A stretch of DNA of 33,979 nucleotides from an uncultured bacterium (GTDB lineage Bacteria; Cyanobacteriota; Vampirovibrionia; Gastranaerophilales; Gastranaerophilaceae). Both the position numbers and the translations under genes were made by a program. Location of the stretch: positions 1-33,979 of the forward strand of contig CASGCE010000009.1 in assembly GCA_949299935.1 (NCBI GenBank), given 5' to 3'. Each line of letters begins with the position of its first letter. Positions within the stretch are counted from its first letter, which is position 1. Shown here piece by piece: positions 11,750 through 20,704 of this stretch. The notes under the pieces are model-generated. The model searched no databases. It had not been told where the DNA came from and saw only the letters and a program-made list of their open reading frames with translations.

Positions 11750-13408
11750 TCAGTTATTTTTCATTGTTTTTGAGCGTAGCTGTCTGTGGTAGGTAATTGC
11801 AAATCTGTGTGCTTCATCTCTTATTCTTTGTATTAAAAATAGTGCGCTTGAATTTCTGGGTAAGATTACCGGTTTTGGTTTTTCCGATAAGAATACTTCT
11901 TCATTACGTTTTGCCAAGCTAACAACGTCAATTCCTTTTACATCAAGATCTTTTATAATTTGCATAACACTTGATAATTGGCCTTTGCCCCCGTCTATTA
12001 TTATTAAATCAGGTTTTGCCCATTTTTTTTCACCCAAATGAATTAATCTGCGTGTTAAAACTTCTTTCATTGATAAGAAATCATCGGGTTTACCTTCAGT
12101 TATTTTAATTTTAAATTTTCTATATTCGGATTTCTTTTTAACACCATTTATAAAAGTTACCATTGAGGCTACAGTATTTGTTCCCTGAATATGTGATATA
12201 TCATAACATTCTATGCGGTGAGGGAAATTTTTCAGGTATAATTTTTCAGCCAGATAAGAGCCAATTTCATTAAAATCATCTTTTATTTTTGACATTTTGG
12301 TTATTTTAGCATTTTGCAGAAGGACATTTGCGTTTTTGTCCGCAAGCATTTGAAGTTCTTTACCTTGAGATGATTTACCATAGCTTATTTTAACCTTTTT
12401 TTGTGCTAAAATCTCCAACCATTGTTCGTATAATGTTTTTTCTCCGACCGCTTCGAGTTCTCCAGAAACTATTTTGTCGGGATATCCAAGGGTAAGTGTG
12501 CTGTAATATTCCTTGAAAAATGTTGCAAAAAACTCTACATGATCATCTTTTTCCACATCATATACAAAATCCTTTTTATCGATAAGTCGTCCTTCTCTAA
12601 TCATTAAAATTACTATTGCAAAAATACCCTCATCAGCTGCAAGAGCTATAACATCTTCGTTAAGTTTAGTATTTTCATATACGACTTTTTGTTTTTCAAG
12701 GGTTTTTTTCAAATCAAGGTAACTGTCACGAAGTTTTGCGGCTTTTTCGAATTGAAGGTTGTCAGAATATTTTTGAATTTGTTCCATTAACTGTTCCATT
12801 AATTCCGACTGTTTGCCTGATAAAAATAATTCAGCCTGACGGACTACGGCTTTGTATTCTTCACTTGTAACGAGGTTTTGACAAGGTGCAAGACAGCGTC
12901 CTATATGGTAATACAGGCATGTCCTGTTTTTAAATTTCGGAGTTTTACACTGCTTTAGCGGAAAAATTTTCTTTAAAAAATCAAGAGTTGAATGCATTGC
13001 CCTAATATCTGTATAAGGTCCGTAATATCGACCTTTTTCAGAGTTTATATTTTTTTTACGGACTATCGATATTCTGGGAAAATCTTCGTCCGTAACAAGA
13101 AAATACGGATATTTTTTATCATCTTTTAATAATACATTATATTTTGGCTTATGTTTTTTTATCAGATGACTTTCTAAAATTAATGCCTCAACTTCTGTAT
13201 TTGTAATTATATATTCCAGATGGTCAATTTGTGAAACAAGCACCTGCACTTTTATGCTGTCATGTTTTTTGTTGAAATAGCTTTTTACACGGCGTTTGAG
13301 AATTTTGGCTTTACCGACATAAATTATTTCATTATCCTTGTTGTAATAAATATAACAACCGGGTAACGAAGGTAAAAGTTTTAAACTTTCTTTCAATTTG
13401 TCGTTCAT
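11750..13408 (-). CDS. uvrC: Excinuclease ABC subunit C, lacking HhH domain
   Basis: Nucleotide excision repair nuclease making both incisions in UvrB-bound damaged DNA. Visible in order: GIY-YIG domain (residues about 15-90; PGCYIYY, YVGKA, LKRR); Cys cluster near 154-176 (four Cys); UVR domain about 203-238 for UvrB contact; RNase H-like nuclease with YDISHIQG near 403, IIDGGKGQ near 473 and RDEAHRFA near 533. The protein stops at 552 residues, about 15 residues after that block. Most UvrC proteins run to about 600 with a C-terminal tandem helix-hairpin-helix; none is encoded here or in the following sequence on this strand. An ATG with TATAAT 7 nt upstream and no ribosome site suggests a leaderless message. 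Confidence 0.95.
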   Translation of the reverse strand: MNDKLKESLKLLPSLPGCYIYYNKDNEIIYVGKAKILKRRVKSYFNKKHDSIKVQVLVSQIDHLEYIITNTEVEALILESHLIKKHKPKYNVLLKDDKKYPYFLVTDEDFPRISIVRKKNINSEKGRYYGPYTDIRAMHSTLDFLKKIFPLKQCKTPKFKNRTCLYYHIGRCLAPCQNLVTSEEYKAVVRQAELFLSGKQSELMEQLMEQIQKYSDNLQFEKAAKLRDSYLDLKKTLEKQKVVYENTKLNEDVIALAADEGIFAIVILMIREGRLIDKKDFVYDVEKDDHVEFFATFFKEYYSTLTLGYPDKIVSGELEAVGEKTLYEQWLEILAQKKVKISYGKSSQGKELQMLADKNANVLLQNAKITKMSKIKDDFNEIGSYLAEKLYLKNFPHRIECYDISHIQGTNTVASMVTFINGVKKKSEYRKFKIKITEGKPDDFLSMKEVLTRRLIHLGEKKWAKPDLIIIDGGKGQLSSVMQIIKDLDVKGIDVVSLAKRNEEVFLSEKPKPVILPRNSSALFLIQRIRDEAHRFAITYHRQLRSKTMKNN

Positions 13409-13415
13409 TAACTAT

Positions 13416-13421
13416 ATTATA
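13416..13421 (-). promoter_or_regulatory. -10 box of uvrC, leaderless arrangement
   Basis: TATAAT on the minus strand, 7 nt before the uvrC ATG. A clear -35 is not seen (nearest TTATTG at a 17-nt spacing). Confidence 0.55.
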
Positions 13422-13479
13422 TAATTTTAATATTTTTCTGCAATAAGTTATACATTTGTTGTATTTTCTTATGAACATC

Positions 13480-13507
13480 TTGACAAAAACTGAAAAACAA
13501 ATATAAT
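13480..13507 (+). promoter_or_regulatory. Consensus sigma-70-type promoter
   Basis: TTGACA at 13480-13485, 16-nt spacer, TATAAT at 13502-13507: perfect hexamers, the strongest promoter seen in the window. The predicted start is about 13514, at the A of an ATG and at the 5' side of the structured leader. Confidence 0.88.
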
Positions 13508-13513
13508 GTTGTC

Positions 13514-13814
13514 ATGATTAAAAAAGATATGGAAAAGATTAATATAGATATAGAAATGTCTAAAACCCTTGCCAAGACTAGCTCACAAGTCGGGGGGGGG
13601 GTACCATTCTTTAAGCTTTAAGAGGCTTTTCCGTATAATAGAAAATTTATTTGATATCACAACCCTATTGCGGCCCGTAATCGCTATGAACAAACGAAAT
13701 ATGACGGGTCTTACTTGTCATGTTGATACAATATTGATTTCACCTTTCGATAATTGTAACAACTTGGGCTGCAATGGGGCTTTGATATCAACGCACGGTT
13801 ATGCGTGAATAACC
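13514..13814 (+). ncRNA. Candidate structured RNA or leader, undescribed
   Basis: No convincing gene fills the 445 nt between uvrC and the next prepilin gene. From the promoter onwards the sequence folds by eye into long-range pairings. P0 is 13527-13537 with 13626-13636 (11 pairs, one G-U). P1 is 13651-13677 with 13765-13791 (27 positions, 22 Watson-Crick, 3 G-U, 2 mismatches). Inside P1, H1 is 13701-13708/13714-13721 (8 pairs, two G-U), and directly abutting it H2 is 13722-13732/13753-13763 (10 pairs, one A-A mismatch). A further hairpin lies at 13791-13814. Wobble pairs favour RNA over a DNA palindrome. It could be a stand-alone small RNA or a 340-nt leader of the prepilin gene at 13854. 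I see none of the tmRNA, RNase P, SRP or 6S hallmarks. Confidence 0.55.
13592..13601 (+). repeat. Homopolymer of ten G
   Basis: An uninterrupted run of 10 G in an AT-rich genome, inside the leader. It also interrupts a short reading frame starting at the ATG 13514: with 10 G the frame ends at 13621 (35 residues); with 9 G it would continue to 13808 (about 98 residues). It is therefore a possible slippage site. Confidence 0.7.
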
Positions 13815-13853
13815 AAGAGATAGTTGTATAAAAAAAGAAAGGTAAAAAAGATT

Positions 13854-14645
13854 ATGACAAAAAGATTTGGCTTTACTTTGGCAGAAGTATTGATCACATT
13901 AGGTATTATCGGCGTTGTAGCTGCCATGACAATTCCGACATTGATTTCAAACACAAACGGAGCCCAGTTCAAAACAGCTTACAAAAAAGCATTATCAACT
14001 TTGAACCAAGCAATATTAATGAATATTGCAATGGAAGATACTGTTTTAAGTACTATTGGTGATGACAACGCCACTCAAGCAAATGCTGGAACAAGATTAT
14101 CTGAAATTTTGGGTAGTCGTATGCAATCAGCAACTGAAATTTCAGCATCTTATCCTGCAACTGGTATTACTTTGAAAGAAAATAGTCCAACACCTGCTGC
14201 TCCGATTATGGATTATACAATTCAATGTGAAAATGAAGGTAGTGCAGAGTCGCCAAACTGGCAAATCCCTGCCCCTAGTGCAGGTTCTGGTTTGACAGTT
14301 CCTGAGGGTGCTAGTTGTGATGCAACCACTCATACTGCGGTAATAAAAAAATCAATGTCAACAACTGTCGGCGACTATGTAAAATATTCATTCGCGGATG
14401 GTACAGCATTTTGGTATAATAAAAATGCTTATAAATGTACAGATGAAACGGCAACGGAAAATGACTGTTATGGTTTCATTGATGTAAACGGTGCAACAGG
14501 TCCTAATACAGTTATTTACTGTGCAGATGCAGCATCAGGCTCATGTGAATCATCAGAAATTACAGATATGTTCCCTGTAATCTTCCACGGACAAACATTT
14601 GAACCTGCAACAGATTCAGCAAGAGCAGTATTGTTTGGCAAATAA
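13854..14645 (+). CDS. Type IV prepilin-like protein
   Basis: 263 residues. N-terminus MTKRFG followed by FTLAEVLITLGIIGVVAAM: prepilin peptidase should cut after G6, leaving F+1 and the conserved E+5, with the hydrophobic helix that packs in a pilus or pseudopilus. The body is Ala/Thr/Ser-rich and hydrophilic, with several Cys, and contains YGFIDVNGATGPNTV near residue 205, the motif shared with the other prepilin-like genes here. The start at 13854 is chosen because an AAAGG site precedes it and it begins directly at the leader peptide; a longer in-frame TTG reading is unlikely. It lies behind the structured leader and ends at its own terminator. No pilus assembly gene is in the window, so the machine it serves is unknown. 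Confidence 0.9.
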   Translation: MTKRFGFTLAEVLITLGIIGVVAAMTIPTLISNTNGAQFKTAYKKALSTLNQAILMNIAMEDTVLSTIGDDNATQANAGTRLSEILGSRMQSATEISASYPATGITLKENSPTPAAPIMDYTIQCENEGSAESPNWQIPAPSAGSGLTVPEGASCDATTHTAVIKKSMSTTVGDYVKYSFADGTAFWYNKNAYKCTDETATENDCYGFIDVNGATGPNTVIYCADAASGSCESSEITDMFPVIFHGQTFEPATDSARAVLFGK

Positions 14646-20041: not shown

Positions 20042-20704
20042 ATGAAAAGAAAATTTAATGCGTTCACTCTTGCAGAAGTCTTGATTTCAATTACCATAAT
20101 AGGTGTTATTGCTATGTTGACTCTGCCAAATGTTATTAATAATTACCAAAAAAAGGTCTATGTAACTAATGTCCAAAAAGTTTATAATGTGGTCTCTGAT
20201 GCAGCTCAAAAATATATGACCGATAATAATTCGGATTCCTTAGAAGAAACTGACTTGACAAGTATTGAAGGTGTGGGTGAGTTTTTAAATAATTATTTTA
20301 AAATAATTAAAGATTGCAATGTTATAAGTAATAAAACCAAAAATATTTGTTTAATACCTTCATATAAAGATGTTGATGGTGTTAGTATTTATACCCCTTA
20401 TTTTGATGAAAGATATTGTGTAATACTAAATACAGGTGCCTTCGTTTGTATGGATACTATGAGAATGCTCTCTCCGCTGTCTCATGGTTATTCATCGGTA
20501 ATTTTTGATATTAATGGTGTTAAACCCCCTAATACTAAAGGACTTGACCTTTTTAGTTTTGAACTTTATTCAGATGGTAAAATTAGTGAAGGATATGAGA
20601 AACAAACTAAAATTGAATTTTGTGTCTCTAATGCCCAAGATGGCGGTTATGCTGCCGGTTGTTTTACAAAACTAAGACAAAATAATTGGGTTATGGATTA
20701 TTAA
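20042..20704 (+). CDS. Type IV prepilin-like protein
   Basis: 220 residues. The leader MKRKFNA precedes FTLAEVLISITIIGVIAML; cleavage would follow A7, since this member has Ala instead of Gly at -1, and E+5 is conserved. The head is about 190 residues with paired Cys (KDCNVI, KNICLI, ERYCVI, FVCMD, EFCVS, AAGCF) and the block IFDINGVKPPNTKGLDLFSFELYSDGKI near 160-187. GAAGGA lies before the ATG. It starts 12 nt after thrC without an intervening terminator, probably expressed with the thr operon. No pilus assembly genes nearby; the role as minor pilin or pseudopilin is inference. Confidence 0.88.
   Translation: MKRKFNAFTLAEVLISITIIGVIAMLTLPNVINNYQKKVYVTNVQKVYNVVSDAAQKYMTDNNSDSLEETDLTSIEGVGEFLNNYFKIIKDCNVISNKTKNICLIPSYKDVDGVSIYTPYFDERYCVILNTGAFVCMDTMRMLSPLSHGYSSVIFDINGVKPPNTKGLDLFSFELYSDGKISEGYEKQTKIEFCVSNAQDGGYAAGCFTKLRQNNWVMDY

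Follow-up and report, generated by a model that had tools for sequence, protein, structure and literature searches.

A conserved structured RNA leader of prepilin genes in a Gastranaerophilales genus and its predicted action on a second pilin

Structured leader upstream of a prepilin gene

We analyzed a stretch of 33,979 nucleotides (nt) from an uncultured member of the Gastranaerophilaceae (contig CASGCE010000009.1 of assembly GCA_949299935.1, positions 1 to 33,979, hereafter the window) and in it the 340 nt (13514-13853) upstream of a prepilin gene. The promoter, the leader elements and this prepilin gene are located on the forward strand. The gene (13854-14645) encodes for a protein of 263 amino acids (aa) starting with MTKRFGFTLAEVLITLGIIGVV and was assigned to Pfam family PF07963 N_methyl (24.3 bits, cut-off 21.2) and to NCBIfam TIGR02532 (22.1 bits, cut-off 16.3). 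Its Shine-Dalgarno sequence (SD), GAAAGGU, is found at 13837-13843. An original prediction, made from the letters of the sequence without database searches, had proposed at this locus an undescribed structured RNA leader behind a perfect-hexamer promoter, with two stems (P0 and P1) and two abutting hairpins. The promoter is of the sigma-70 type (13480-13507) and indeed matches the consensus at 12/12 positions, with TTGACA at 13480-13485, a spacer of 16 nt and TATAAT at 13502-13507.

The fold energy of 13514-13853 was -100.9 kcal/mol compared to -66.9 +/- 5.5 kcal/mol for dinucleotide shuffles (z = -6.15), and none of 100 shuffles folded as well, so that the comparison with shuffled controls suggested along with the prediction came out in its favor. 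Both stems and both hairpins were recovered at their proposed positions. The P1 domain (13651-13791) consists of a stem (13651-13677/13765-13791) with a 3x3 internal loop around three hairpins, the first of which (13681-13697, loop CUAUGAACAAA) had been overlooked. This hairpin holds the most conserved sequence, GCUAUGAACAA at 13683-13693 (loop A), and its closing pair alternates between U-A and C-G. It is followed by hairpin H1 (13701-13721), identified from the fold, and hairpin H2 (13722-13763), which presents UUUCACCUUUC at 13738-13748 (loop B). Seven G-U pairs were counted in the minimum free energy structure of the elements originally proposed (one in P0, three in P1, two and one in the hairpins) instead of the six claimed.

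Homologous leaders in related genomes showed that P1 is maintained by covariation, as the prediction had anticipated for a genuine RNA. Among 22 copies, 95.8% of the cells of P1 and its hairpins were paired, and pairing fell to 36-48% when the P1 partners were slid by 1-3 columns. Changes on both sides were found in 17 P1 pairs compared to 10.8 in shuffles, any of five measures being reached by 0/500 shuffles, and P1 also formed when each copy was folded alone. Loops A and B are nearly invariant, i.e. they are conserved single-stranded seeds within a conserved structure. P0 (13527-13537/13626-13636), which encloses an upstream open reading frame (uORF) and a G tract, is conserved (92% of cells paired), and was rejected as a covarying helix because its covariation was no greater than in shuffles. 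Between P1 and the SD lies a further stem-loop, P2 (13797-13814, GGUUAU-GCGUGA-AUAACC), whose stem is kept despite sequence change (GGUCGU/ACGGCC, GGCA/UGCC and GAGC/GCUC, read by eye from the alignment). The sequence GATAGTTG at 13819-13826, between P2 and the SD, is unpaired and conserved in most leader copies and may be a processing site. We conclude that the region is a real structured RNA leader.

An Rfam search of the window gave no matches at the gathering score, including none to known riboswitch aptamers, in agreement with the original prediction, which had recognized no known family. With a relaxed E-value only chance-level eukaryotic or viral families far below threshold were returned, and a scan for tRNA and tmRNA genes was negative. 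An intrinsic terminator, or a transcription attenuator with leader peptide, was considered and rejected, with no terminator-like site in 13300-14000.

A second copy of the leader DNA with 79% identity is present in the same genome, and copies were found in most genomes of the genus, at 1-4 separate sites in each. Wherever the downstream flank is assembled, a prepilin gene follows directly, with a product starting with MTKRFG..FTLAEVLITLGIIGVV (MTRRFA in one case); the contig of copy G006a ends before its downstream gene is reached. A P1 covariance model matched 12 of 239 genomes of the family, all from one of 41 genera. A pattern scan of the genomes of 84,980 species recovered 22 stretches, 20 of them named Candidatus Gastranaerophilales, on contigs matching the metagenome-assembled genomes (MAGs) of the genus already found. 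The leader is therefore an RNA family confined to one Gastranaerophilales genus in the searches made. The window encodes for a second prepilin (20042-20704, MKRKFNAFTLAEVLISITIIGV...), which does not have this leader.

Complementarity to the 5' untranslated region of a second prepilin

A 5' untranslated region (5'UTR) of the form ...TTGTTCATAGC...GAAAGGTGAAAAGATT-ATG was found at prepilins that share the N-terminal type but have no leader. Its two blocks are exact reverse complements of the loop sequences GCUAUGAACAA and UUUCACCUUUC, the second one covering the SD. In the genome of the window (G000) this target is located at G000:C35:42081-42115 on the minus strand. All 25 leader copies can pair with the target of their own genome, loop A over 11-12 base pairs (bp) and loop B over 9-11 bp across the SD. 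For the window copy both contacts comprise 11 bp, with -15.9 kcal/mol for loop A and -14.5 kcal/mol for loop B. Among 177 upstream regions sampled from the window's own genome the target prepilin ranked first for both loops, and only 1/5000 and 12/5000 shuffled loops did as well as the real ones. One other exact TTGTTCATAGC in this genome (C14:164004) has no obvious start site nearby.

The complementarity to a translation start is conserved along with the leader. Among 14 sampled genomes of the genus, 13 have site A plus SD ahead of a prepilin, as do G001 and G014; the target is present in every leader-bearing genome, and the only sampled genome without it (G005) has no leader either. Four further pattern matches of site plus SD in other genera did not show the prepilin 5'UTR sequence. 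In another genus, the MTKRFGFTLAEV prepilins that were examined retain the SD GAAAGGTGAAAAGATT but have no site A. The SD matched by loop B thus also occurs where there is no leader, whereas site A is found together with it. Most targets are predicted to hold site A in a hairpin loop closed by the stem AUUAGUAAAG/CUUUAUUAGU. Prepilins from another genus of the family (L137 and L138) share the N-terminus and carry a different conserved 5'UTR, GCGTAGAGCATTTTGAGAAATCAGAAAGTTTTAC..., and might have a regulator of their own.

Pairing between the loops and this target presumably occurs and would repress the second pilin. The P1 domain would present both loops, of which loop A might anchor the RNA by a kissing contact with the hairpin loop in the target 5'UTR while loop B covers the SD, the two together blocking translation. 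Transcription of a leader-bearing prepilin would then lead to repression of the second, genus-conserved prepilin. The original choice between a cis-regulator of the pilin and an independent small RNA (sRNA) needs revision in this light, as the two invariant loops are complementary in trans to the 5'UTR of another pilin gene.

A translational switch in cis was our initial model, and it starts from the same loop B. In this case loop B would sequester the SD of its own transcript, which would be freed again by ribosomes that traverse P1 in the suitable G-tract phase. A match of 6-11 nt between loop B and the own SD is indeed present in all 20 complete leaders, and, in copies showing both, the reading frame that crosses P1 ends shortly (21-68 nt) upstream of the pilin ATG. 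However, in most leaders this match extends over only 6-7 nt (7 bp in the window copy) with -8.2 kcal/mol in the window, weaker than the -14.5 kcal/mol in trans, and the invariant loop A is left unexplained. Moreover, the SD of leader prepilins is mostly GAAAGGUAAA and that of all 15 targets GAAAGGUGAA; the SD of leader pilins has lost a G that would extend the pairing, resulting in less self-pairing, as if escaping it. Pure SD sequestration in cis was therefore downgraded upon reading the 5'UTR of the second pilin, and we regard a switch in cis as quite unlikely. Because pairing is symmetric, the mRNA of the second pilin might also bind the leader and regulate the leader's own downstream prepilin. 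This reverse direction appears very improbable to us, since on the target it is the SD that would be covered, whereas the leader would contribute loops located at a distance from any start site.

Upstream reading frame and G tract

The description of the leader as having no convincing gene was incomplete. A leaderless uORF of 35 codons in the phase of the window (MIKKDMEKINIDIEMSKTLAKTSSQVGGGVPFFKL*) extends from 13514 to 13621, and wherever the promoter is visible its ATG lies 6 nt past the -10 hexamer (7 nt in one copy), approximately at the expected transcription start. Leader copies keep the promoter with the same spacing to this ATG. Transcription would thus start at the uORF ATG, and the uORF is probably translated. 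It contains a poly-G tract at 13592-13601, with 10 G in the window and 8, 9 or 10 G in relatives. One phase of the tract reads across P1 and the other two stop soon after it. With 9 G, the uORF would continue as a through-frame (13602-13808) that is open across P1 to a TGA at 13806-13808, in the loop of P2. The earlier alternatives on the role of the RNA had also missed this arrangement, in which the RNA lies in an mRNA leader with a putatively translated uORF that can be shifted in phase.

The uORF frame is open as far as the tract, and downstream of the tract 25/25 copies keep an open frame across P1. In 1337 codons (23 copies) the through-frame contains no stops, compared to 21 (minimum 12) in column shuffles, and the other two frames behave like shuffles (144 vs. 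137 and 85 vs. 89 stops). Within 15 copies less than 80% identical there were again no through-frame stops, compared to 15.8 (minimum 8) in shuffles, a result reached by 0/1000 shuffles; as the copies are related to each other, these counts are not probabilities. The ratio of nonsynonymous to synonymous polymorphism (pN/pS) was 0.87 upstream of the tract and 0.99 downstream of it, and an excess of third-position changes was absent. Zero stops together with a pN/pS of about 1 argue for selection on translatability and against selection on the peptide. From these sequence comparisons, translation through P1 appears to be what selection maintains, and selection on the amino acids of uORF and through-frame was rejected. 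An open frame can thus be selected for ribosome traffic instead of its product.

The stop-free through-frame in all 25 copies might also be read as a functional, phase-variable small protein of about 70-105 aa, to which the RNA fold would be secondary. We consider this highly improbable in view of the pN/pS of 0.99 and the lacking third-position excess; further, uORF products had no family match in Pfam and NCBIfam, an 8-nt deletion shifts the C-terminal reading frame in part of the copies, and P1 pairing and the loops account for the conservation. A conserved protein in one frame had been named as an observation that would speak against a structured RNA. What was found is a frame that is kept stop-free, yet its amino acids are not under selection.

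Tract lengths, as read from consensus MAG sequences, were 10, 9 and 8 in three leaders of 87-96% identity, and 9 and 8 in a pair of 96% identity. The tract thus lies inside a translatable frame and differs in length between close relatives, as is characteristic of phase variation. In two of the tract phases ribosomes would stop before P1, and the module would fold and be active; the G10 of the window would represent this active state. In the G9 phase ribosomes would translate across P1 and terminate shortly ahead of the pilin SD, leaving the module unfolded and inactive. Tract length would in this way switch the module. This gate is the less certain half of the proposed mechanism, and slippage of the RNA polymerase or the ribosome could replace a change in DNA length.

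The other prepilin class of the same genome bears on this point. About 50 G tracts of at least 9 G are present in this AT-rich genome of 1.68 Mb (e.g. G000:C6:9007, C11:12297 and C28:7477; L058-L085). Thirty such loci were read, and nearly all of the tracts are located between SD-ATG and the GFTLAEV of prepilin genes, with CGACTCCTCTAAGTAGAAATAGCAAGGG as a conserved follower. In 24/24 anchored cases the length was exactly 9, one G short of joining the open reading frame to GFTLAEV. These tracts look like programmed slippage or frameshifting instead of switching, and simple DNA phase variation is doubtful for this class. Many of these prepilins (L058-L085) also carry a promoter-like TTGACC-N17-TATAAT with an internal ATG 6 nt downstream (MKNYSSRKGFTLAEV), which suggests a second, leaderless start. 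Between KRFG and FTLAEV of the signal peptide, L036/L039 (G011a, G001a) and L182 (G003) carry about 14 additional aa in frame (VPQARQDRSNALTA or similar sequences), and at this position other prepilins have longer inserts resembling palindromic elements (CHPELGSGS...).

The constancy at 9 G, though 10 would join the frames, would fit a trans-acting module for which DNA tract length is not the switch. In this case slippage of the RNA polymerase or ribosome would let a fixed share of the ribosomes pass P1; the tract might instead tune RNA pairing as in RepG/tlpB. That loop B can pair with GGGGGGU also speaks for such a module. In the leader class, however, the tract varies between 8, 9 and 10 G even among copies of 96% identity, and we consider this alternative unlikely.

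Proposed mechanism and known systems

Taken together, we consider it probable that the leader is a trans-acting antisense module which represses a paralogous pilin and is gated by a slippage-prone uORF. Several points weigh against this. Loop B can also pair with the own SD (6-11 bp) and, using G-U pairs, with the G tract, which leaves room for a role in cis, and in three copies (G011b, G012b and G010c) the own SD is matched as well as the target. The pairing between loops and target is nearly invariant on both sides and therefore receives little support from compensatory changes. Neither an intrinsic terminator nor a processing site indicates where a free RNA would end. With respect to the gate, the through phase was found in only 2 of 22 tract-bearing copies, one further copy has no tract and an uninterrupted frame, and the constant 9 G of the other prepilin class shows that tracts need not switch by length.

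A more far-reaching version seems to us possible, with the odds somewhat against it. In such a slippage-gated exclusion switch the same two-loop antisense module, directed at a conserved master pilin, would be present in several prepilin mRNAs, and whether ribosomes melt it would depend on the length of the G tract in the uORF. If true, expressing a variant pilin would either shut out the master pilin or allow it, heritably, at random and by RNA alone. More generally, the message of one pilin would silence another through RNA only and bring along its own stochastic switch. Beyond a few pathogens, it is an open question how a bacterium with a large set of pilin genes chooses the pilin displayed, and the setting here is a common, uncultured gut lineage of non-photosynthetic relatives of the Cyanobacteria. 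A literature search turned up no account of the leader RNA, and none of phase variation in Gastranaerophilales. We rate the leader as a new RNA family, and the kinds of regulation it would represent are already known.

Trans-acting sRNAs derived from a 5'UTR have been described with Rli51 from the mpl 5'UTR of Listeria (PMC11394854), Vsr217 from the malK 5'UTR of Vibrio (PMC8265627) and RhlS from the rhlI 5'UTR of Pseudomonas (PMC6786874). These are regulatory RNAs in mRNA 5' leaders reported to act on other genes, as is predicted for the pilin leader. Unlike them, the pilin leader precedes several paralogous prepilins and its predicted target is a prepilin of the same family; it would pair by two loops at once and is preceded by a putatively translated uORF with a G tract. 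RNA-based influence on a type IV pilin has been described for the major pilin at pilE of Neisseria meningitidis (PMC4402397). The pilE RNA is a cis-antisense RNA within the pilE locus, whereas the pilin leader is encoded at other loci and matches two short blocks only.

A variable G-repeat in an mRNA leader together with a C/U-rich base-pairing loop is also known from RepG and the tlpB leader of Helicobacter pylori (PMC8295292). RepG is a separate gene whose RNA binds the G-repeat, whereas the C/U-rich loop of the pilin leader is located in the same leader as the tract and fits best to the SD of another mRNA. In the sortase-dependent pili of Bifidobacterium breve, G tracts act as switches by replication slippage (PMC9187656), and as in the pilin leader the reading frame at a gut commensal's pilus locus is set by a G tract. 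There the tract lies within the pilus gene and joins two open reading frames, whereas the tract of the pilin leader lies in a uORF of unconserved peptide that overlaps an RNA structure.
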